DNA from: Burkholderiaceae bacterium
Lineage (GTDB): Bacteria > Pseudomonadota > Gammaproteobacteria > Burkholderiales > Burkholderiaceae
Direction of reading: 5' to 3'
Length of the DNA stretch: 64,000 nucleotides
Assembly: GCA_947462685.1 (NCBI GenBank)
Contig: CANHPL010000005.1
Span: forward strand, 1 to 64,000
The number at the start of each line of letters is the position of its first letter. Within the stretch, counting starts at the first letter, position 1. The translations under genes and the position numbers were made by a program. Positions 51,105 to 62,677 of this stretch are shown here, one piece after another. The notes under the pieces are model-generated. The model was not told where the DNA came from. It made no database searches and saw nothing but the letters and a program-made list of their open reading frames with translations.

Positions 51105-51463
51105 GGGACCGACTTGGTTTCGACGTGGATTGCGAAGCATGAAGGGCATACCGAGGACCCGTTATCTCGTAAATCAATGGGAATGTAATAACTGCAAACG
51201 ACGAACGTTTCGCACTAGCCGCTTAATTGCGGTTGCCCCTGAACTGATTCTCTCTTGGGTCAGGTAACGCAAGTTACATCAGGGTCATATACAAGAGATA
51301 AGACTATTTTGCGTCACGATAAATAGTTCGAAAACTTAGTGAATCGCTCATGAATAACGTGTCAGTCCGTGCTTCATAAGTTAAATCAAATGATATGACT
51401 AAGTATGTAGAACTTTATGTAGAGGATTTGCGGACGCGGGTTCGATTCCCGCCGGTTCCACCA
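51105..51463 (+). ncRNA. ssrA: Transfer-messenger RNA (tmRNA)
   Basis: Rescues stalled ribosomes with SmpB. The 5' end GGGACCGACTTGGTTTCGACG pairs with the 3' acceptor CGGTTCC-ACCA, with one G-U pair, and the T-arm reads GCGGGTTCGATTCCCGC. The encoded tag starts at the resume codon GCA (51194) and reads ANDERFALAA-stop (TAA ending 51226), a betaproteobacterial tag. Pseudoknot stems are visible in part (TTGGGTCAG...). The molecule is one-piece, about 359 nt, with CCA encoded. It follows gph by about 40 bp. Confidence 0.96.
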
Positions 51464-51497
51464 TAATAAATATTGACAGGCTTTAGAGTCAATACAT

Positions 51498-51540
51498 ATA
51501 TACCTCGAAGGTTAGTGTTAAAACTTCCTTCGAGGTATAT
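51498..51540. repeat. 14-bp perfect inverted repeat downstream of ssrA
   Basis: ATATACCTCGAAGG and CCTTCGAGGTATAT are perfect complements separated by 15 nt. It lies 35 bp after the tmRNA and could terminate it, but no T run follows on either strand; the tail is TACCTGC. It might instead be an operator or a remnant end of a mobile element. Confidence 0.65.
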
Positions 51541-51721
51541 TACCTGCAATATTAGCTACGTTTTATCGCCACGCATGGATGTGGTTGTATTGAGCTTTGC
51601 TGTGTTCAATAGCGCCGATTTTTGACTAAGGTATTTAATCTATTGTCTTGACTATATAAAAGGAATTTTATTGTAATTTTCTGATATATTATGGTTTTTA
51701 TAACTTTAATCAAGGTCAAAA
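51541..51721 (+). other. AT-rich spacer before the PH-domain operon
   Basis: I see no gene here. Promoter-like AT-rich words (TTGACT at about 51656, TATATT near 51685) precede the operon, but no single pair is convincing. A copy of the tmRNA 3' end, which would mark an integrated element, was not noticed in this spacer. Confidence 0.4.
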
Positions 51722-52138
51722 ATGGAATCTAACGAACAAACCATATGGGAAGAAAAGGCAGGTCTGAAAGATTTTTACGTTAACCCTGTTCATTGGGTCT
51801 TAACATTTTTCACCCTGGGAATATATTTACTGATTACCTATTTAGTGAGAATTAATTCACGTTACACACTAACTAGCGAAAGACTGATCAAAGAATCAGG
51901 AATACTGTCGAAATCACGTGATGAAATTGAGTTGTTTCGTGTAAAGGATACCGCCGTAAAAGCAACACTGTTTCAAAGATTTGTTGGCTATGGAAATATT
52001 GCTGTTGTTAGTACAGATGCATCTGGAAATTTTATATTAGAAAATCTTCCTAATGCCATGGAAAAGCGTGAGCAGATTCGAATGATGTCGAACAAATCAC
52101 GTGAAGCAAATGGTGTTCGCACAATAATTAACGAATGA
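51722..52138 (+). CDS. Membrane-anchored bacterial PH-domain protein
   Basis: A 138-residue protein with one or two hydrophobic segments (about residues 23-45, HWVLTFFTLGIYLLITYLV) followed by a bacterial PH (bPH_2/DUF304) domain: INSRYTLTSERLIKESGILSKSRDEIELFRVKDTAVKATLFQR and GYGNIAVVSTDASG. The pattern YxLTxxRLIxxxGxLxxxxxEIxLxRIxD is typical of YdbS-like proteins. Its stop overlaps the next ATG (ATGA). A Shine-Dalgarno AAGG precedes the ATG. It heads a three-gene coupled set next to the tmRNA; function unknown. Confidence 0.78.
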   Translation: MESNEQTIWEEKAGLKDFYVNPVHWVLTFFTLGIYLLITYLVRINSRYTLTSERLIKESGILSKSRDEIELFRVKDTAVKATLFQRFVGYGNIAVVSTDASGNFILENLPNAMEKREQIRMMSNKSREANGVRTIINE

Positions 52139-52692
52139 ACTCAGCGGACAATGTAAGCGCCTTGAATACATTTAATATCTATAAAATTAATCAGCTTCTG
52201 TTTCTAGAAGCTGGTTTTGTTCATTTGAACACTATTTTATCGGGTGTATTCATTCCGCTGTTTGGTCTTTCATTCTTCTTTGTTTCAATAGCTACATATT
52301 TCGTATATTGTTTTATGGACTCAATAATGGCCCAGTACGAGTATAAGTTTGAAGACATACATGATGTAATATCCTCTGACAGATTTCCTAAAGCTGGCAG
52401 GAACGTAATCGTTTGCTTAGGCCTGATCGTTCTAACTATTCCCGTTTTATTGTTATATAGCCAAAATTTGCTTGCTTATCCATTCAATTCTGCTGTTTGT
52501 ACCTTGCTATCAATTTTATTAGGCGGATTGGCATATGTATTCACAAATCAAAATAGTAAGAAGTTAGTAACGATATTATTCTATTCAATTATTTCCATAC
52601 CTTTAGTTTTTATATCTCTTGTTGCGGGGGGAGTTTTGACGTTACCCCTACTTTTTATTTTCCTCGACATTAGAGTCTTAAATGAAGTCTAG
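52135..52692 (+). CDS. Polytopic membrane protein, unknown
   Basis: A 185-residue protein of about four to five transmembrane segments (near residues 33-57, 91-109, 116-137 and 145-177). No family motif is recognisable. The soluble part between the first two helices (MDSIMAQYEYKFEDIHDVISSDRFPKAG) is acidic and may face the cytoplasm. Its start overlaps the PH-domain gene and its end overlaps the next gene by 11 bp, so all three are translated together and may form one membrane complex. Base composition is lower in GC than the housekeeping genes. Confidence 0.68.
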   Translation: MNSADNVSALNTFNIYKINQLLFLEAGFVHLNTILSGVFIPLFGLSFFFVSIATYFVYCFMDSIMAQYEYKFEDIHDVISSDRFPKAGRNVIVCLGLIVLTIPVLLLYSQNLLAYPFNSAVCTLLSILLGGLAYVFTNQNSKKLVTILFYSIISIPLVFISLVAGGVLTLPLLFIFLDIRVLNEV

Positions 52693-52933
52693 CGTTTTAA
52701 CTTTATTAGTTGCAAATATAGTTAGTGCCACTTTAATGTTGGCGCAACTACTTGATTACGAATGGTCAAGAAACACTAAATTCGTAATGGTTTCATTGGC
52801 ATTCGCGCCAATAGTTATAGCTATTTACAACATCAGCGTTTATCCTCATGATGACAGGAGAGTTATGTCGTTTGGATTAAGCGCATTGTGCCTTGCTTTT
52901 TTATCTATTATCGGAACACTCGTTTTACATTAA
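52682..52933 (+). CDS. Small three-helix membrane protein, unknown
   Basis: An 83-residue protein almost entirely made of three hydrophobic helices (about 4-24, 31-52 and 61-81). ATG 52682 is embedded in the last codons of the preceding gene, an 11-bp overlap that supports its being real. No match to a known family is apparent. It is the third member of the tmRNA-adjacent coupled set. Confidence 0.6.
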   Translation: MKSSVLTLLVANIVSATLMLAQLLDYEWSRNTKFVMVSLAFAPIVIAIYNISVYPHDDRRVMSFGLSALCLAFLSIIGTLVLH

Positions 52934-53006
52934 TTAAGAAACAAGTATTTATTGAATACTTTTTTATCTATAAATTTTTCGTATATAAAAATGGAAAATA
53001 ATTATC

Positions 53007-53510
53007 ATGAAATATCTATTAGCATTGATTTTATTGATATCGAATCTTACATATGCGCAAGCCATTAATGAACGGTGGCTTGGTGTTTGGCAATCAGGAG
53101 CTGCCGGTAAATTAACGGTTAGTGCAGCGAGGTTTGGTGATTGTCAATGGGTGAACAAAGTTACTACCGCACAAAAAAAATGCTTGGCATATTACAACGG
53201 GAAGATCAGCAAGAAAGAAATGGTCGCAGATTTAAATAATGATTTGAAGAATCTTTCTGGATGGTTGAAGGAAAAATTAATTACAGCAGCTGACTTCCAA
53301 AAAATGAAAGCCGCTTCAGAATCTTATAAAAAAGTTCTCGATGATATTTCAGATGACACCTTTAGAATGGTGTTTGTTGACTATGGTGAAATGGCGAGTC
53401 CTGATGGAGGCTCTGCCTATTTCTTAGATAAAGATTTTGTCTATGAAACTTCCCATGTGGAAGGTGGTATTGGACCCGCTTTTTCGATTACTAAATACAG
53501 AAAGCAGTAA
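53007..53510 (+). CDS. Secreted protein of unknown function
   Basis: A 167-residue protein with a clear signal peptide (MKYLLALILLISNLTYAQA) and a mature part beginning INERWLGVWQSGAAGKLTVSAARFGDCQW. Two cysteines (in FGDCQW and KKCLAYY) could form a disulphide, and the middle is a Lys/Asp-rich helical stretch. The beginning (WLGVWQS...GKLTV) and end (HVEGGIGPAFSITKYRKQ) look like strands of a small lipocalin-like barrel, which is only an impression. It lies 73 bp after the membrane-protein set on the same strand. Confidence 0.7.
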   Translation: MKYLLALILLISNLTYAQAINERWLGVWQSGAAGKLTVSAARFGDCQWVNKVTTAQKKCLAYYNGKISKKEMVADLNNDLKNLSGWLKEKLITAADFQKMKAASESYKKVLDDISDDTFRMVFVDYGEMASPDGGSAYFLDKDFVYETSHVEGGIGPAFSITKYRKQ

Positions 53511-53538
53511 CCACATGAAACATATTCAAAAAGTACTA

Positions 53539-53552
53539 AACTGATATCAGTT
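53539..53552. repeat. 14-bp perfect palindrome AACTGATATCAGTT
   Basis: This gapless palindrome lies 28 bp after the secreted-protein gene. Two-sided symmetry without a loop suggests a protein-binding site rather than a terminator. It is about 80 bp before the RidA-like gene, so could be part of its promoter. Confidence 0.5.
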
Positions 53553-53567
53553 CATTTAGTTGACCCT

Positions 53568-53598
53568 ATTACATGCCTACGAAATCAGGGCATGTAAT
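53568..53598. repeat. 10-bp inverted repeat upstream of the RidA-like gene
   Basis: ATTACATGCC and GGCATGTAAT are perfect complements with an 11-nt loop. It could be a weak terminator for the preceding gene, though no T run follows on the plus strand, or a leader hairpin or operator of the RidA-like gene 33 bp downstream. Confidence 0.5.
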
Positions 53599-53630
53599 GA
53601 AAAAATAATCAAATTAAAGGCTCGAAAAAT

Positions 53631-54017
53631 ATGCTTCAATTATTAAACCCTAAAACAATTTCGGCACCCAATGGTACGTATTCTCACGGTGTTCTTGTGA
53701 CTGGAGGATCTAAATTCTTAGCTATCTCTGGTCAGGTGGCAATTAAATCTGACGGTACTGTCCCAGACTCGTTAAATGAGCAATGTGAGGTGATATGGAA
53801 AAATATACTCGCCGTCCTTGATGAATCTGGCATGTCCATAAAAAACTTAATTAAAATTAATTCTTATTTAACTAGCCCACAACAGATCAAAACTTTTGTA
53901 GAAATCAGAGCAAACTATCTGCAAGGTCATTGTCCAGCTTCAACGCTTATTGTAGTTTCAGCTCTAGCCGATCCAAGATTTTTGGTTGAAATTGAGGGCT
54001 ATGCTTTAATAGACTAA
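53631..54017 (+). CDS. RidA/YjgF-family protein lacking the imine-deaminase arginine
   Basis: A 128-residue Rid-superfamily protein (SHGVLVTGGSKFLAISGQV at the N-terminus, VEIEGYALID at the C-terminus). In archetypal RidA the segment FPARSCVEV carries Arg105, needed to bind the 2-imino acid carboxylate. Here the aligned segment is CPASTLIVV, with Ser at that position. It therefore belongs to the arginine-lacking Rid groups and probably is not a classic 2-iminoacid deaminase. It converges with the EamA gene downstream. Confidence 0.85.
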   Translation: MLQLLNPKTISAPNGTYSHGVLVTGGSKFLAISGQVAIKSDGTVPDSLNEQCEVIWKNILAVLDESGMSIKNLIKINSYLTSPQQIKTFVEIRANYLQGHCPASTLIVVSALADPRFLVEIEGYALID

Positions 54018-54122
54018 TTTGATAACTAATCAATTTATTTATCTCAAAAAAATTACCCGGTTTAGTATTTTTATTTAAGATGTACTTTTTATTCAGCAAA
54101 AGAGCATATTAAGTTAGGATCA

Positions 54123-55022
54123 TTACTTCTTTTTTCGTAAGCCAATGGCGATCACGGCACCAACAACAATAAGTGCCCCAACGATTTGTGTGAGGGATAT
54201 CTTTTGATCCAATAGTATCCATGCAAAAACAAGTGCAAAAATAGGTTCCACATTCATAATTGCAGAATTACCAACAACTCCTAGTCGTGGCAATAAGCTA
54301 AACATCATCGTAAATCCAGTGCCATAAAGAATAGTAAGCCCGACAAGCCCCAACCAACCATTGGTCGATATGGGAAGGGTTAGACCACCTTGAAAAAAAC
54401 CAACCAGAGTAGCGAGTGCGGTCACAATGGCCAGTGTGTAGGCCGTTCTAACTAGAGAGTTAATATTGCTAGTTTTGTGTTCTGTTAATACCAATGCCAG
54501 GCCAAATGAGGCAGCGCCCAACAGGGCATAAAACACCCCTTCACCAATGGATCGCCACTGAGCTGCAGCCCCAAGGCCAGATGCTGTTCCAAATACATCA
54601 AGCGCTAGGGCTAACCCAAAAAGAATGATTGGCATCGATTTGAGGACAAGTGGCTCAGCCTTCCGTCGATACAACATACGAGACCATAAGGCTGTCCACA
54701 AAGGGTGTGTATTAAAAGCCAGTAATGCTAAAACAACAGGTATGAGAGAAACAGATGAATAAATACAATAACTTTGGATAGCTATCAATGTCCCAATCGT
54801 CAGAAATGTAACGCGATGCTCTTTGGATATCTTCATTGTGATGCCGCGTCTTAATAAAAGAATGCAAATAATCACCGCTGTAACGATACTTCTAAAAAAT
54901 ACGGCGGTCACTACATTGACGGAGTCATTAAACGCAAAACGAGCTGCGACATGGTTTGCTCCCATGAGTGCAGCGATGAGTAAAAGCATAAAAAATGCGG
55001 CAAGAGTGATCGATGACTTCAT
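54123..55022 (-). CDS. EamA/DMT-family transporter
   Basis: A 299-residue inner-membrane protein with ten predicted helices in two EamA repeats, as in drug/metabolite transporters. NHVAARFAFNDSVNVVTAVFFRSIVTA in the first repeat and IMNVEPIFALVFAWILLDQKISLTQIVGALIVVGAVIAIG in the last are typical. The basic C-terminal tail is LRKKK. Substrate unknown. It is divergent from another EamA gene 225 bp away. Confidence 0.87.
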   Translation of the reverse strand: MKSSITLAAFFMLLLIAALMGANHVAARFAFNDSVNVVTAVFFRSIVTAVIICILLLRRGITMKISKEHRVTFLTIGTLIAIQSYCIYSSVSLIPVVLALLAFNTHPLWTALWSRMLYRRKAEPLVLKSMPIILFGLALALDVFGTASGLGAAAQWRSIGEGVFYALLGAASFGLALVLTEHKTSNINSLVRTAYTLAIVTALATLVGFFQGGLTLPISTNGWLGLVGLTILYGTGFTMMFSLLPRLGVVGNSAIMNVEPIFALVFAWILLDQKISLTQIVGALIVVGAVIAIGLRKKK

Positions 55023-55127
55023 GAAGTGTCTTTTATTGGTTTAGTTATTAGCGAAACATACTTCAGTAAATGAATCTTAGTAAATCTCCGGCATAGTATG
55101 AATAGGCTTTTAGGGTTTTATTACCTC

Positions 55128-55168
55128 GTCCCATTATAGGCTGATTAGACATTGACCTAAAATGGGAC
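55128..55168. repeat. 13-bp inverted repeat in the spacer between two EamA genes
   Basis: GTCCCATTATAGG and CCTAAAATGGGAC are complementary except at one position, with a 15-nt spacer. Both flanking genes point outwards, so it is not a terminator for them; an operator or a decayed insertion-sequence end are possible. Confidence 0.55.
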
Positions 55169-55177
55169 AAGTTAAAG

Positions 55178-55204
55178 ATTTAACTTAAATTTTTAAAGTT
55201 AAAT
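55178..55204. repeat. 9-bp inverted repeat ATTTAACTT/AAGTTAAAT
   Basis: The two perfect arms are separated by 9 nt and lie 44 bp before the second EamA gene, close to where a promoter should be. Being AT-only around the centre, it may be fortuitous. Confidence 0.4.
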
Positions 55205-55247
55205 TATCATAAGCAGTAATGCATATAACAACTAAACCATCCATTTT

Positions 55248-56165
55248 GTGACCGAAGACAGACGATCGTATTTATTTTCATTGGCACTTGCTATTACCGG
55301 ATCTATCCTGTTTTCTGGTAAAGCCATTTTAGTAAAACTTAGTTATCGATATGGCGTATCTTCTGAGGTTTTATTGGCTTTAAGAATGATTTTTGCTTTT
55401 CCGATGTTTTGGATCGTTTATTATTTTTCAAGAAATTATGAGCCAAATACAAAAATAGCGCTGAGTGATGCCATGAAATTAATGTGGTTAGGATTTAGTG
55501 GCTATTTTTTATCTAGCTACCTTGATTTTTTAGGTCTATATTACATTTCGGCTGGTTTAGAAAGAATCGTGCTCTATCTCACGCCTGCAATTGTTATTTT
55601 GATTTCGTATTTTTTTCTTCATAAGCCCATTTCAAGACTTCAATGGATTTCAATTGTAATTGGTTACCTTGGAGTCGTTTTGGCTTTTATCGAAGACTTA
55701 GATACCAAAGGAAATAACGGCTGGCTTGGTGTTGGTTTGGTCTTTCTGAGCGCCTGTTTATATGCTAATTATTTAATTTTTTCAGGGGAGATTGTGAAGC
55801 GCGTTGGAAGTATTCGATTAGTCACCTACGCCAGTAGTTTTTCCGCAGTTTTTAGTATGATTCAAATCACACTGACATCACCAGATCAATTATTTGAACA
55901 GCCATCAGAAGTTTATATACTTAGCTTAGTTAATGCGCTATTTTGTACGGTCTTTCCAATCTTAATAATTATGCTTTCAATCCAGCGTATAGGCTCATCC
56001 TTAACTTCTCAAGCTGGTATTTTAGGCCCCGTATCAACTCTTTTTATGGGATGGTATTTTTTACAAGAAAAAATAGGTATTTTTCAGGTATGTGGCCTAG
56101 TATTGGTCATCATTTCAGTTTGGCTCTTGATGAAGAATAAGCCACCTGAGACCCATCAAACTTAA
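55248..56165 (+). CDS. EamA/DMT-family transporter
   Basis: A 305-residue, ten-helix transporter of the drug/metabolite superfamily. The first repeat holds FSGKAILVKLSYRYGVSSEVLLALRMIFAFP, and the second ends with LGPVSTLFMGWYFLQEKIGIFQVCGLVLVI. The GTG start at 55248 is accepted because the first helix begins a few residues later; no Shine-Dalgarno is visible. Its sequence is clearly different from the divergent EamA neighbour, so they are not a recent duplication. Substrate unknown. Confidence 0.85.
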   Translation: MTEDRRSYLFSLALAITGSILFSGKAILVKLSYRYGVSSEVLLALRMIFAFPMFWIVYYFSRNYEPNTKIALSDAMKLMWLGFSGYFLSSYLDFLGLYYISAGLERIVLYLTPAIVILISYFFLHKPISRLQWISIVIGYLGVVLAFIEDLDTKGNNGWLGVGLVFLSACLYANYLIFSGEIVKRVGSIRLVTYASSFSAVFSMIQITLTSPDQLFEQPSEVYILSLVNALFCTVFPILIIMLSIQRIGSSLTSQAGILGPVSTLFMGWYFLQEKIGIFQVCGLVLVIISVWLLMKNKPPETHQT

Positions 56166-56228
56166 CTGGGCGAATTGAACTATTTTTAGACCAAGTTTTT
56201 AAGTGGCCGATTGAAGTCGAAACTTCGT

Positions 56229-56864
56229 CTAATGACGGCCATTTTTTAAGGCGATGAGTTGCGCCAGGGAGCTTAAATTGAGCTTACGCATTACTTCAGC
56301 TTTATATTGTTTGGTAGTTGGAAGAGCAATTTGTAGCTTTTCTTGTATTTGTGCATTATTAAAACCTAGGGCAAGCAGCTCAAAAACCTCACGCTCCCTT
56401 GGGGCTAAACCTTTTAATCCCTCTTCTAAGGCAACCTGCTCTATAAAAGAGTGCATATAAGCAGCATCTTGTTCTAAGCCACGCACTATAGCGGACATGA
56501 AATGATCTCTTTCAAAGGGCTTGATTAAAAATTCAATTGCCCCTTGCTTCATGGCAGAAATGGTTTGCGGAAGAGTACTCTCTCCACTAATAAAAATAAT
56601 AGGGATTTTTCTGCCACGTTTTAATAATTCAGATTGCAACTCCACGCCGTTCATATCTGGCATTCGCATATCCGTAATAATGACCGCAGGTGCAACCTGT
56701 ATTGAAATTTTTAGAAATTCAAGTGCTGATTCAAACACATAAACTCGATAACCTAAAAACTCAAGCATACCTTTTACAGTAACGCGCATCGATTCATCAT
56801 CATCAATTAAGAAGATGTGTTTTGAGGAATTTTCGATGGCGTGAGGTATCGTGTCGCGGGTCAT
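56229..56864 (-). CDS. Response regulator, FixJ/NarL-type (REC + LuxR HTH)
   Basis: A 211-residue DNA-binding response regulator. The receiver domain (about 15-130) has the acidic pocket DDDE (residues 21-24), the phospho-acceptor Asp65 in VIITDMRMPDMNG and the Lys in FLIKPF. The LuxR-type HTH (about 148-205) begins LAPREREVFELLALGFNNAQIQEKL. It lies 89 bp downstream of the histidine kinase gene on the same strand and is its likely partner; the FixJ-like build fits a kinase without its own receiver. Confidence 0.9.
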   Translation of the reverse strand: MTRDTIPHAIENSSKHIFLIDDDESMRVTVKGMLEFLGYRVYVFESALEFLKISIQVAPAVIITDMRMPDMNGVELQSELLKRGRKIPIIFISGESTLPQTISAMKQGAIEFLIKPFERDHFMSAIVRGLEQDAAYMHSFIEQVALEEGLKGLAPREREVFELLALGFNNAQIQEKLQIALPTTKQYKAEVMRKLNLSSLAQLIALKNGRH

Positions 56865-56953
56865 AGATAAACAAAGTAATGATATGTCTCTATTATGGCA
56901 AGTCTAGCAGGAATATATATCCTACGATAGGATGATGCTGTCATTTACCTCAA

Positions 56954-58378
56954 TTAATTTTTGAGAGTCATCGGAAAACTAAGGGTAAATGTAGCACCAC
57001 CTCCTAAAGCATCTTGGTAGGTAATTTTCCCACCAGCATTCCGCATAATATATGCGCATAACCACAATCCAACACCCATGCCATTTGATTTATCACTGCT
57101 TAATAATCCAAAAAGGTGCGGTTGTTTTTCTACAGAGACTCCAAATCCATTGTCGCTAATCTCTAAAACATATTGCGCAGCATGATAACAACCCCGCAAA
57201 GAGATCAATTTATTGGCTAAATCAGAACTATTCAACGCCTCCATGGCATTATTGATCAGATTTAAGAGTACTTGCAAAAAATGCCCCTTATTGCAGAAAA
57301 TAACTTGGTCTTCGTTCAAATCTATTTGTATTTGAATATTCTTTGAAATAAGCTCTGATTTATAGATTGCCAAGGCATTCTCCACAATCTCGTGAACTTG
57401 AATGACTTCCTGCACGCCGCCATCTTTAATAAAAATCGAGCGAAGTGATTGGACGACATCTCCAGATCGCTTAGCATCTTTTTCTAGTTGACCAACAATT
57501 TGCCCAACCAATTCAGGCTCTAACTTATTTGATTCATGAAGCATCTTCAAAAACTGAATATTGAGTAAAGATGCACCTAGGGGCTGGTTAAGCTCATGTG
57601 CAATTGAAGCAGATAGCGCTTCGGTAGATGAGGACTTGTTGGCCTTGAGTATTGAGGCAATCATCAAATCGCGCTCACTCAACAGCTTGGTCACCCGCGC
57701 ACTATCCTGAAGGTTTGCGGCATTGACTTGGGCTAATTTCTCAGCCAAAAAGCCATTAATTGAAATATAAGAAAGGACAGTAAAGGCAACCCCAAACCAT
57801 CGAATCATTGTCGTAAGAAATGGCTCTGTATAGAGCGATGGTGGAGAAATAACCGTGTTTTCTAGCAGCCAGATGCGAACTACACCAAGGACTATCTCTG
57901 CACAGCAGGTGAATATAAGAAAGTCAATCTGAATATAACGCTCACGCTTGCGTACTTGGAATAATTCATACAAGATGCCGATTAAACACAATATCAAGAA
58001 TGAAATAACAAACAAAACTCTGTCGTGAAAAACTCCAAACTGCCTCATGTATTCAAATACCGAACCAAAAGCCAAAAACAGTAACGGCGAGAAGATTACT
58101 ATTTTTTTAACAGGCTGATCGTTTAGGGCACGACAAAATATAAAAAGGAAAAAATAGCCTGCAAAGAAAAAAGTATTGGCAAATGTCAAAAGAACGGGAT
58201 TAATCGATGGGGCTGATGCAAAAAACAAAAAAGCACCTATATTGAGGGCTAGGGCAATCAACCAATAGTTATTAGCGTTAGTTGATGTGCGCCTCCCAAA
58301 ATACGGTATTGATGATACGAAAAGACCCGTAAGCACCAAGACAAAGACTAAAAAAAGGGCTTCATTTGCATATATCAT
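56954..58378 (-). CDS. Sensor histidine kinase with multi-helix membrane sensor
   Basis: A 474-residue kinase. The N-terminal half has about seven hydrophobic helices (residues 5-215) and no recognisable periplasmic sensor domain, so it would sense within or at the membrane. A coiled linker leads to the HisKA-like motif SIAHELNQPLGA (phospho-acceptor His261). The ATPase domain has the N box NLINNAMEAL, DNGFGV (G1) and GMGVGLWLC (G2). The HELNQPLxA form is typical of FixL/DctB-like kinases. It is divergent from the outer-membrane channel gene, a possible target. Confidence 0.9.
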   Translation of the reverse strand: MIYANEALFLVFVLVLTGLFVSSIPYFGRRTSTNANNYWLIALALNIGAFLFFASAPSINPVLLTFANTFFFAGYFFLFIFCRALNDQPVKKIVIFSPLLFLAFGSVFEYMRQFGVFHDRVLFVISFLILCLIGILYELFQVRKRERYIQIDFLIFTCCAEIVLGVVRIWLLENTVISPPSLYTEPFLTTMIRWFGVAFTVLSYISINGFLAEKLAQVNAANLQDSARVTKLLSERDLMIASILKANKSSSTEALSASIAHELNQPLGASLLNIQFLKMLHESNKLEPELVGQIVGQLEKDAKRSGDVVQSLRSIFIKDGGVQEVIQVHEIVENALAIYKSELISKNIQIQIDLNEDQVIFCNKGHFLQVLLNLINNAMEALNSSDLANKLISLRGCYHAAQYVLEISDNGFGVSVEKQPHLFGLLSSDKSNGMGVGLWLCAYIMRNAGGKITYQDALGGGATFTLSFPMTLKN

Positions 58379-58503
58379 GGGTCTAATGTTACTACTTTTA
58401 CGTCTTTTCCAAGCAAAACCCCCATTAAAAAGCTAAAATTAATCATTATAAAAAGTGAGTTATCTTAAATATCTTGTTATATGTAATGCTCACATCAAAA
58501 CCA

Positions 58504-59400
58504 ATGAAGACAGCTTTCAATAGACTCGCCCTTTGCACGCTAATCCTCTACCCTCTACTAGGGCAAGGTATTGACTTGCAGCCAAACGATATCGTGGCGC
58601 CATTGTCAGATAAGCGTTTTATACAAATATCCTACAGTGACACAGAAAATTCCACGTACTATAAGAATGGTTCTGTAGTAACCGCCAGACCATTTAGTAG
58701 TCCTGTAGTAAATGCGCAAAGTTTGACACCAAGATTGATTGGCACTTATACACTGGCCAATCTTCCCGCAGTCTCTTACGTCCAAATTCCTTTTGGAAAT
58801 ATTCAACCAGAAGGATCGATCGCAAGTTATCCTAACAGCACCGGGATTGGTGATCTCTCACTAGCCACAGCGATTTGGCCTTATGTCAATCGAGAAAATC
58901 GCACTTATATTGGAATAGCAGGATTCCTTTCAATACCCACTGGAGGTTATTCCAACACGCAGACATTTAATGTGGGTGAAAATCGCTATAAGACTGCTTT
59001 GCAAATCGGATTACAAAAAGCAATCGTTGGAAATCTAGATGGCATGATAGCTGTCGATACCATTTGGTACGGTGGTAACAGCCAGTGTGCTGTAGCCTGT
59101 GGAGCAGCAACCAATGTTCCTTTAACTCAAAAACCTCTAACCACCCTACAGCTTGGTCCCATCTATACCTTTAATCCAACCTTTACTGTAGGTGCATCCT
59201 ACTTCTATGTCACAGGTGGGGCAACTGAAATTAACAACGTCTACCAAAATAACGTAATTAATACCCAACGCTTTCTATTAAGTGGAATAGCCTATACAGA
59301 TTTTGGGAGATTTTCATTACAGTATGGCCGGGATATGGCAGTTGAAAACGGTTTTATCCAAACCCGATTACTAACCATTCGGTATGCGATACAGTTTTAA
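58504..59400 (+). CDS. Outer-membrane channel, phenol MetA-pathway transporter family
   Basis: A 298-residue protein from ATG 58504, with a signal peptide (MKTAFNRLALCTLILYPLLGQG); the track starts ten codons earlier at a TTG. Alternating beta-strand pattern, the NSTGIGDLSLATAIWPY and FLSIPTGGYSNTQ segments and the C-terminal Phe (TIRYAIQF) mark an outer-membrane barrel of the meta-pathway/phenol-degradation transporter family (Pfam Phenol_MetA_deg). A pair of close cysteines (CAVACG) would form a loop disulphide. It shares a 125-bp divergent upstream region with the histidine kinase, so is likely under its control. Confidence 0.78.
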   Translation: MKTAFNRLALCTLILYPLLGQGIDLQPNDIVAPLSDKRFIQISYSDTENSTYYKNGSVVTARPFSSPVVNAQSLTPRLIGTYTLANLPAVSYVQIPFGNIQPEGSIASYPNSTGIGDLSLATAIWPYVNRENRTYIGIAGFLSIPTGGYSNTQTFNVGENRYKTALQIGLQKAIVGNLDGMIAVDTIWYGGNSQCAVACGAATNVPLTQKPLTTLQLGPIYTFNPTFTVGASYFYVTGGATEINNVYQNNVINTQRFLLSGIAYTDFGRFSLQYGRDMAVENGFIQTRLLTIRYAIQF

Positions 59401-59550
59401 AAATTAACTCAGATACTATTTATCGATGTATTACTTTGGCACAAATTCAAGCATCTAGAAAATATTCAATAAGCGTTATTCCTACAGTGATGAAACTAAT
59501 GCTTAACTTTAACTGACCATGTATTGATGAAGTAGCAATTTAATGGTTAG

Positions 59551-59748
59551 ATGTTTGAATTAATTAGTCCATCACACAAGCAATTATTAAAATCACGTCA
59601 AAAATACACTTTTGATGCAACTGATTCTTTATTTAGTGGGATGAAATTGCCATTCAATCTACAAACCACACTCCTCCCTCTAGAACAAATCATTACAAAC
59701 GGAGTCATGTCATCCCATCAGGAGAGCTCAGTATGGCTTTCAACTTAA
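59551..59748 (+). pseudogene. Possible decayed transposase fragment (IS1595-like)
   Basis: A 65-codon ORF whose middle, RQKYTFDATDSLFSGMKLPF, resembles the segment between the zinc ribbon and the catalytic domain of IS1595-family transposases (QTSxTAGTxFHxTKLPL). The sequence then loses similarity, and no zinc-ribbon cysteines, DDE residues or terminal repeats are visible. I read the 59.4-59.87 kb gap, otherwise empty of genes, as a likely scar of a mobile element. Recognition is by eye and weak. Confidence 0.3.
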
Positions 59749-59870
59749 TTACTACTTGTGTAAAAAATGTGCTCGACCAGACAAAACCTATATTGATGAA
59801 AGGTACTCGGGGTCATTTTGAAGCACGTTGTATTCACAAAGCAAGCATAAGAATAGATCTTTCCTAAAAA

Positions 59871-59892
59871 AAATGCCACTAGCGTGGCATTT
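59871..59892. terminator. Bidirectional terminator AAATGCCAC-TAGC-GTGGCATTT
   Basis: A perfect 9-bp stem with a 4-nt loop, flanked by an A run on the left and a T run on the right, so it can act in both directions. It ends the Bug gene on the minus strand (22 bp after its stop) and any plus-strand transcript from the outer-membrane gene. Confidence 0.88.
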
Positions 59893-59913
59893 TTTATTGC
59901 TTATGAATCTGTA

Positions 59914-60903
59914 TTAACGTGGCTGATAACCAATATCTTTCACTAACTTACCGTATCTCGCAAAGTCTTCTTTTAATGTTTTTTCAAAATACTCAGGGGG
60001 CTCATTTACTACTTCTAAGCCATATTGCTTGAGTTGCTCCACGACTTCCGGAGAATTCATGGCCCGATTAATTTCTTGATTGAGTTTTAAAGTAATGTCT
60101 TTAGGCATTCCTACAGGTCCAGAATAGGCAAACCAACCATTCGACGTCCAACCAGGAAGGGTTTCTGAAACAGTCGGAACTCCCGGCCACTCAGATACTT
60201 TAGACTTATTAGAAATCGCCAATAAACGAATTGCGCCAGAGCGAACGTGTGGTGCGGGGCCGCTAACGCCATCTACGGAAGCCATCACTTGCCCGCCAAT
60301 TTGGTCAGTAATGATTGCAGCAGTTCCTTTGTATGGGACATGCGTAAACGTGATACCTGCAGTTTTAGCTAAATGCTCAAATACTAAATGGGGGAAACCA
60401 CCTTCACCATTGGAAGCAACCGTCAATTTACCGGGATTGGCTTTTGCCCAATCAATCATTTGCGCAAAGGTTTTGAAGGGCGCTTGATTATTTGCCGTGA
60501 TGACTTGGTAGTTATAGGTCGATAACGCTATCGAGGTGAAATCATTGATCGGGCTGTAGGAGATATTTTTGCTGGTATGCGGCAGGACCACCATATTGCC
60601 TCCCTGTGAGGCAACAATGGTATATCCATCTGGCTTCGACTTAGCAACATAATCCATACCAATCACGCCGGATGCCCCTGCTCTGTTTTCAACAACAATC
60701 GGTTGACCAAGACGTTCTTGTAACTTCGGCGCAATCAGTCGCGTCATAATATCCGTGGTATTTCCGGGAGGGAACGGTATGACGATCTTAATTGGCCGAT
60801 TCGGATAGTTACTAGACTGTCCAAAGCTAAGTGGACAGGCAATCGCTAATGCAACGGCAATACTAGTACGAATACAATTACGCTTCTTCTCAAAATTGCT
60901 CAT
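59914..60903 (-). CDS. Bug/TctC-family tripartite tricarboxylate transporter binding protein
   Basis: A 329-residue periplasmic solute-binding protein of the family greatly expanded in Burkholderiales. The signal peptide (SIAVALAIACPLSFGQ) is followed by YPNRPIKIVIPFPPGNTTDIMTR, VVENRAGASGVIGMDYVAKSKPDGYT and HVPYKGTAAIITDQIGGQ, all typical of Bug proteins that bind carboxylates. No tctA/tctB membrane genes are nearby, so it may work with a distant transporter or as a sensor component. It is 28 bp downstream of the hydrolase gene, in one operon. Confidence 0.9.
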   Translation of the reverse strand: MSNFEKKRNCIRTSIAVALAIACPLSFGQSSNYPNRPIKIVIPFPPGNTTDIMTRLIAPKLQERLGQPIVVENRAGASGVIGMDYVAKSKPDGYTIVASQGGNMVVLPHTSKNISYSPINDFTSIALSTYNYQVITANNQAPFKTFAQMIDWAKANPGKLTVASNGEGGFPHLVFEHLAKTAGITFTHVPYKGTAAIITDQIGGQVMASVDGVSGPAPHVRSGAIRLLAISNKSKVSEWPGVPTVSETLPGWTSNGWFAYSGPVGMPKDITLKLNQEINRAMNSPEVVEQLKQYGLEVVNEPPEYFEKTLKEDFARYGKLVKDIGYQPR

Positions 60904-60931
60904 GTTAATCTCCTTATATATTTACAACGTA

Positions 60932-62677
60932 TTATTTTTTCTTCGGAATAACTGGTACAAGTAATTTTGCGGGATGCTTAGGGCCCATATGCAAAGTCAC
61001 CTTACCACCAAAAATAGCAGGTGGTCGATCTTGTTCATCATCATGCACAAAGGGTCCACAACCTTTCATCGGATTTTTCATATTCGATAAAACTGCCGCG
61101 GCATCATCATGCTCATAATCGCGCCCACGAATCGATAAGGCAATGCTATATCCAACTGGCACAACAATACAGGTTGGCCAAACTTCCACATCGAGTTCAT
61201 ATACTTCACCGGGTTTCAGTGGTTGTTTTTCATCATGGGTATGCCATGGGCGATACGGTAAACTTTTCTTCCGATCCAGTTTACGATGAGATGCCCTTAA
61301 CCAACCTTGTGCAACTGGTGTCTTAGGATCGAGTGCCCCATGGAATAAAACTTCTTTACCTTGCGGATCAAACACTCGAAAAACAGCAAAAATATCGGCA
61401 TCAACAGTAGAGGATGAAATGAATAATTTTAAAGCCATCGGTCCTGTAATTTCCACTGCTTGTTTTTGTGGTGGGAATGCAAATGTAACGCCATCGCCCA
61501 TCATGTCATAGGTAATTTGTACATTTTCTTTGAGGGGCTTTTGGCTAAACGTTTTTGCGCTTGGATCTAAATGGAGATTAAACCATTGGGTCCGCTTGAG
61601 AGGCCACTCTTGCTCAGCACGTGGCTCAAACTTCTCGCCTGGACTTCTGACCAGCATGGAAACTGGTGGCGTCTTGTTCCAGCCATTCTTTTTCCCTTTA
61701 AGGAAGTAGTCAAAGAAGCGTTTCTGCAACCCTAGGCCATAGTCAGTGTAAAACGGTGCCCAATGGGATCCACCATGCACTTCTAACCATTTTTGCTTGG
61801 ATTTAGATCGGACAAAACCTTCAAAGTTCCCACGCGTGTGTAAACCTTGACCACCCCAGTTTGCAGCACTTAATACGGGTATATCAACTAAATCTAGATT
61901 CGCGGTACGCTCCATATACCAATCGTTGATCATTTCATTGTCAATGACGCGTTTCCAAATATCTTCAACATTTTTCAAAAGCTCTTCGTGCGGCAAAGTC
62001 TCTGGTCCGCAAACAGTCTCGCCAGTATTGGGGTTTCTCTTGCCCCGATCTCCCACGCCGTGTTGTACGGTTTTAATTTGCATTTCCAACCAATTTTTAC
62101 GGAAGGAACAGGCAATTCCACCATGACGATTGGATTCACGATAATTATCGTTCCACCCTTCCCAGACACAAATAGCTGCTAAATGCTTTGGTTTGCTAGC
62201 GGCTGCGCGCCATTGATTACTTCCGTAGTAGGAAATACCATTCATCCCTACTTTACCATTACACCATTCTTGCTTGGCTAACCATTCAATACATAAATGA
62301 ATATCTTTGGTTTCACGAGCATTATTGTGATCCATAAAGCCTGGGGAACGACCAGCTCCTCGAGAGTCAATCCGAATACAAACATATTCGTCAGGCACCC
62401 ATTTTTCTGGATCAACTACTTCCCAGTTTTGGTATTTATTGGTAGTACCACGCAAGACATCTGGATTCTCTTTTTCCATGATTTCCCAGGCAGTTTTATA
62501 ACCCTCTTGAAAGGCTAAACCCTTACCATAAGGTCCATAAGACAAAATCACTGGGAATTTACCTGCGTGTGTTGGACGAAAGATGTCAGCCCGCAAAATC
62601 AAGCCATCGTCCATTTTAATGGGCATATCCCAATCAATGCGCATACCATCGCGTACTTCAGATTTCCAAGCTTGCAT
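60932..62677 (-). CDS. CocE/NonD-family (S15) hydrolase
   Basis: A 581-residue alpha/beta hydrolase of the X-Pro dipeptidyl-peptidase/cocaine esterase class. The nucleophile motif GISYYGSNQW (Ser149) follows the oxyanion region RADIFRPTHAGKFPVILSYGPYG and IDSRGAGRSPGF. A plausible catalytic His is in HGGSHWAPF. The C-terminal third is the jelly-roll X-Pro_DPP_C domain. There is no signal peptide, so it is cytoplasmic. Such enzymes cleave esters or amides; the true substrate is unknown, but the paired Bug protein suggests it splits an imported carboxylic ester or amide. The Shine-Dalgarno AAGGAGA is strong. Confidence 0.85.
   Translation of the reverse strand: MQAWKSEVRDGMRIDWDMPIKMDDGLILRADIFRPTHAGKFPVILSYGPYGKGLAFQEGYKTAWEIMEKENPDVLRGTTNKYQNWEVVDPEKWVPDEYVCIRIDSRGAGRSPGFMDHNNARETKDIHLCIEWLAKQEWCNGKVGMNGISYYGSNQWRAAASKPKHLAAICVWEGWNDNYRESNRHGGIACSFRKNWLEMQIKTVQHGVGDRGKRNPNTGETVCGPETLPHEELLKNVEDIWKRVIDNEMINDWYMERTANLDLVDIPVLSAANWGGQGLHTRGNFEGFVRSKSKQKWLEVHGGSHWAPFYTDYGLGLQKRFFDYFLKGKKNGWNKTPPVSMLVRSPGEKFEPRAEQEWPLKRTQWFNLHLDPSAKTFSQKPLKENVQITYDMMGDGVTFAFPPQKQAVEITGPMALKLFISSSTVDADIFAVFRVFDPQGKEVLFHGALDPKTPVAQGWLRASHRKLDRKKSLPYRPWHTHDEKQPLKPGEVYELDVEVWPTCIVVPVGYSIALSIRGRDYEHDDAAAVLSNMKNPMKGCGPFVHDDEQDRPPAIFGGKVTLHMGPKHPAKLLVPVIPKKK

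Follow-up and report, generated by a model that had tools for sequence, protein, structure and literature searches.

A bPH2 membrane-protein gene set in a probable mosaic, replacement-type variable locus downstream of ssrA

Introduction

Genomic islands at tmRNA genes are defined by a displaced 3' fragment of the tmRNA gene together with an integrase (PMC4383910). The locus described here lies directly downstream of ssrA, as such islands do, but carries neither a displaced tmRNA fragment nor an integrase. Replacement genomic islands with recombination in their flanks have been described in Polynucleobacter (PMC5644125), and hotspots lacking mobile elements are widespread (PMC5635113). With the Polynucleobacter islands (PMC5644125) the present locus shares a variable cargo between conserved flanks, the lack of a visible integrase and exchange beyond the species, although those islands are larger, comprising cell-surface and giant-gene regions, and we did not find an ssrA-bounded locus named among them.

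The cargo opens with three genes, P1, P2 and P3, the first of which encodes a bacterial PH-domain (bPH2) protein. Bacterial PH domains have been proposed to oligomerise and to cap membrane complexes (PMC2817789), and the export of a leaderless bacteriocin requires two bPH2 proteins, DdE and DdF (PMC8657885). P1 resembles YdbS/YdbT and DdE/DdF (PMC8657885) in being a small bPH2 protein with a membrane anchor, whose gene adjoins others for membrane proteins. However, its partners P2 and P3 give no bPH2 match, Pfam searches of the neighbouring genes reveal no YdbT-like triple-bPH2 partner, and neither a bacteriocin gene nor an ABC transporter was recognised near P1. A further relative is PHROG 3707, a phage-borne family classed as moron, whose match spans most of P1, whereas no phage genes were recognised in the P1 locus.

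Results

The window analysed is a 64,000-nucleotide stretch of a 103-kb contig (C5) from the genome under study (G000), that of a freshwater-type betaproteobacterium, presumably a Polynucleobacter by its gene content, which we compared with a genus set of 186 genomes. The initial annotation had singled out positions 51464-53510 as an AT-rich acquired module. This stretch is indeed AT-rich, with a GC content of 0.345 where the contig averages 0.416, and ranks in the lowest 0.2% of 2-kb windows along the contig, but the extent was drawn too short, as the AT-rich variable stretch continues to ~59.86 kb. The complete variable locus (Table 1) has a GC content of about 0.373 (value taken over 51464-59913), and no other stretch of equal length on the contig is as AT-rich. 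On its left stands ssrA, detected in 91 of the 101 genus genomes sampled, and on its right a conserved receptor and hydrolase gene pair, presumably Bug-type and CocE-like, respectively.

Table 1 Features of the ssrA-downstream locus (positions in the window)
Feature	Position	Strand	Basis and remarks
ssrA (tmRNA), tag ANDERFALAA	51105..51463	+	ARAGORN; Rfam tmRNA, E 9e-92; conserved left flank
Two stem-loops, TATTGAC/GTCAATA and ATATACCTCGAAGG/CCTTCGAGGTATAT	51464..51551	+	Fold z -6.6; part of the conserved left flank
Variable locus, 8.25 kb, gene content varying among relatives	51613..59864		Homology breaks with G806 and G769
P1, membrane-anchored bPH_2 protein, 138 aa	51722..52138	+	PF03703, PHROG 3707, conserved motifs
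P2, multi-helix membrane protein, orphan, 185 aa	52135..52692	+	ATGA overlap (4 bp) with P1
P3, 3-helix membrane protein, orphan, 83 aa	52682..52933	+	11-bp overlap with P2
P4, secreted/periplasmic, genus-level family, 167 aa	53007..53510	+	Homologous stretch 53004-53538 in L137
Remnant of MBL-fold hydrolase gene start (gene after P4 in L137/L138)	53514..53538	+	Alignment ATGAA...ATTCAAAAAGTACT, homology then ends
RidA/L-PSP family gene	53631..54017	+	PF01042, E 1.1e-20; also 3' of ssrA in G043 and G099
Remaining cargo: two EamA transporters, LuxR-type response regulator, histidine kinase, putative outer-membrane-type protein	54123..59400
Right flank, conserved: tripartite tricarboxylate (presumed Bug-type) receptor and presumed CocE-like hydrolase genes	59914..62677	-	Identity to G806 and G769

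The locus is visible in just three or four close relatives, two of which have broken assemblies. In G806, a member of the same genus assembled as a single contig, an 86% match runs for 8.1 kb up to 51612 and resumes at 85% from 59865, and the two flank matches enclose ~9.6 kb of unrelated genes. Judged from their sequences, these presumably encode cbb3-oxidase subunits and an autotransporter-like protein, among others. In G769 the homology ends at 51463 and returns at 59932; its ssrA shows 98% identity across the 321 bases compared and is followed by one glycosyltransferase gene and then by the receptor and hydrolase genes, and the corresponding site in G768 opens with the same kind of glycosyltransferase. 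The right flank itself is well kept, with the receptor 93% identical in G806 and values of 83% and 90% in G769. Differing cargo between the same conserved flanks, the pattern of a replacement island, is thus found in the genome under study, G806 and G769. None of the remaining cargo, the last gene of which is predicted to encode the outer-membrane-type protein, is present downstream of ssrA in the relatives examined. Three draft genomes (G063, G066 and G082) have their tmRNA gene split at contig ends, and strain variation at the ssrA site may break assemblies.

The earlier proposal that P1-P4 had been acquired is supported by this comparison of ssrA-downstream regions: the genes are absent from the same place in all close relatives examined, which carry other genes between ssrA and the receptor/hydrolase pair, and P2 and P3 are missing from 185 of the 186 genus genomes, occurring in the genome under study alone. 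The same proposal had pointed to the tmRNA gene as an integration site, and here we find neither a duplicated tmRNA 3' end nor an integrase, leaving that part unsupported. No displaced tmRNA 3' end with ≤3 mismatches occurs in the window or in the whole genome, and laxer settings reveal none within 51.5-61.5 kb. Likewise, no integrase-like product is encoded by the open reading frames (ORFs) of 51464-59913, as judged by Pfam for the main ORFs to 58.4 kb and by sequence alone for the ORF at 58.5-59.4 kb.

The two stem-loops that follow ssrA locate the left boundary more precisely. Both are kept in G806 and G043, and the three-species alignment with the genome under study, where the element is single-copy, shows one two-sided change in stem 1. 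They are not followed by a T-run and are therefore not a typical terminator. Since they are intact in both G000 and G806, the G000 cargo begins ~150 bp past the end of ssrA rather than at the end itself. These features bear on whether the locus could be the remnant of an integrase-mediated island at the tmRNA 3' end, which later lost both its integrase and the displaced fragment. Such an origin would be in keeping with the frequent targeting of ssrA by islands (PMC4383910), with a 'GCCGGTTCAACCA' repeat and second terminator beyond the glycosyltransferase gene inserted in G099 (L056), and with a 1.25-kb insert between ssrA and the stem-loops in G043 (L054). We nevertheless consider it unlikely in view of the intact stem-loops, the offset of the cargo from ssrA, the lack of an integrase ORF and the lack of a tmRNA 3' fragment under either search setting. 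The repeat of the tmRNA 3' end in G099 is degenerate and its terminator resembles that of ssrA itself, while the G043 insert is mostly non-coding and has a CCACCA-like end; within it, 22 bases of the tmRNA T-arm region recur in inverted orientation. Judging by these tmRNA-end-like repeats, it is possible that integrase events took place at the ssrA site of other lineages in the past.

P4 and the RidA gene each have a history that is distinct from that of the backbone. P4, which begins with a signal-peptide-like stretch, is 82.6% identical at the DNA level to its homologue in G768 (L137) and 89% identical to that in G769, compared with 74-76% for the backbone, and both homologues sit at another locus, upstream of MBL-fold hydrolase and bactofilin genes. 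The match to L137 opens 3 bp before the P4 ATG and closes within the first part of the hydrolase gene. The RidA gene is 85-88% identical to the copies in G099 and G043 (88% in G043), two distant relatives with a backbone identity of ~68-70%, in both of which RidA lies behind their own ssrA. In each case the identity exceeds that of the backbone, as expected from exchange more than from descent, and the pieces found within 2.4 kb (P1-P3, P4 and RidA) have different relatives. It is very improbable that the locus is instead ancestral, with nothing acquired and the sampled relatives having lost it. A weak 68% match between 59466-59750 and the DNA next to ccoN in G806, perhaps left over from earlier cargo, would place part of the locus before the split, but the loss of P2 and P3 would be required in 185 genomes, the locus is the contig's most AT-rich stretch, and P4 and RidA are closer between genomes than the backbone.

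The arrangement first described for this region, three overlapping genes directly after ssrA and then a gene for a secreted protein, is confirmed by the ORFs and their 4-bp and 11-bp overlaps, and hydropathy agrees with the assignment of P1-P3 as membrane proteins, giving 1, 4 and 3 membrane segments, respectively. Dinucleotide shuffling of the region (500 replicates) never yielded a 185-aa ORF, nor one of 83 aa with 3 membrane segments, and gave a 138-aa ORF in 0.2% of replicates; P1-P3 are therefore not chance ORFs. Codon usage compared with shuffled sequence gives clear support for P1 (z 2.7) and P4 (z 4.6), while P2 (z 1.2) and P3 (z 0.9) barely differ from it. The weak signal of P2 and P3 fits a recent foreign origin, and P3 especially could be non-functional given its codon usage. 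The sequence preceding P1 revealed no consensus promoter.

P1 belongs to a widespread subfamily of bPH2 membrane proteins. It matches bPH_2 (PF03703) with an E value of 8.7e-14 and 52 bits against a gathering cut-off of 22, and its residues 15-129 match the PHROG 3707 'membrane-flanked domain' (E 1.6e-14). Elsewhere in the 186 genus genomes P1 yields just generic bPH2 matches of 24-32% identity, and no P2- or P3-like neighbours stand beside P1 relatives among the genus and family matches listed. P1 and its relatives have in common a W towards the N terminus and DE-[LIV]-E, with R-[VI]-[KR]-D in most and a GVR tail in 4 of the 5 aligned sequences. The relatives that share these motifs sit on large replicons of Pseudomonas, Methylobacterium and Cupriavidus, and searches by peptide patterns gave no close relatives in genome or viral contigs. 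Genes for small membrane proteins come after the PH gene on two Pseudomonas megaplasmids, but their products have no sequence relation to P2 or P3.

P2 and P3 themselves gave no convincing match in any collection searched and no match at all in plasmids. Across 399 genomes of the order, the matches were limited to two weak ones (E 0.001 and 0.008), of which one fell in a frame interrupted by several stops and the other in a 401-aa frame. A weak P2 match in the genus (E 0.017) was dismissed, its gene context being that of a cytochrome-b-like protein. The AlphaFold model of P2 is of low confidence (pLDDT 63) and insufficient for a fold search.

Discussion

The locus is likely to be a mosaic, replacement-type variable locus bounded by ssrA with its stem-loops on one side and by the receptor/hydrolase pair on the other, with P1-P3 and P4 as strain-specific cargo. 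We infer that recombination through the conserved flanks and the genes next to them, and not an integrase acting at the tmRNA gene, would swap the cargo. Gene swapping of this sort is an ordinary kind of genome turnover; what the comparison adds is a gene-by-gene map of a mosaic variable locus beside ssrA, in which sites are filled differently in close relatives, and a case in which an adjoining tmRNA does not by itself imply integrase-mediated insertion.

Within this cargo, P1-P3 probably represent one translationally coupled operon for an inner-membrane assembly. The gene overlaps are suggestive of joint translation and of a complex shared by the products in the inner membrane. It is possible that the three proteins form a single complex; the bPH2 domain of P1, on the cytoplasmic side, might then oligomerise and cap or regulate the helical bundle of P2 and P3. 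We tentatively suggest, with some doubt, that P1-P3 could be a new type of bPH2 inner-membrane complex with orphan multi-helix subunits, spreading as a compact cassette via the ssrA-bounded locus. The capping proposal for bacterial PH domains (PMC2817789), taken together with the export role of DdE/DdF (PMC8657885), leads with low confidence to such a bPH2-capped assembly; it might serve to export a membrane-active compound or to resist one, a suggestion that is more doubtful still. P1-P3 would offer a minimal bPH2 operon for a protein family of poorly known function.

A competing origin for P1-P3 is a phage- or plasmid-derived accessory set, for instance a superinfection-exclusion or membrane-defence cassette. 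The PHROG 3707 match of P1, to a family of the moron class, is consistent with such a source, as is the position of the nearest P1 relatives on megaplasmids, with adjoining small membrane-protein genes in two Pseudomonas plasmids. However, there is no PADLOC match and so no profile of a known anti-phage defence system, no relative turned up in viral contigs and just one weak hit among phages, and the plasmid neighbours are unrelated in sequence. We regard this origin as improbable.

P4 had been placed in one complex with P1-P3 in the initial annotation, a grouping that is unsupported, as the P4 DNA is of separate origin from 3 bp before its ATG. P4 would rather be a separately acquired periplasmic protein and need not be part of the complex; its AlphaFold model (pLDDT 43.5) is insufficient for a fold search. 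The context of the P4 family beside bactofilin genes hints at a putative envelope role of its own. A paralogue of P4 with 35% identity lies on the same contig at 64145-64669, just past the window, where it adjoins a region of FHA, PP2C, Ser/Thr kinase and MORN-repeat proteins, a layout that recurs in G077 (L111). This T6SS-like kinase region was considered as an explanation of P4 and dropped, as visual inspection picked out no T6SS core genes there. At three further loci (L121, L122 and L123) a P4-like domain forms the C terminus of ~400-aa membrane proteins, and these clusters include three bactofilin-like genes and a ParA-like gene.
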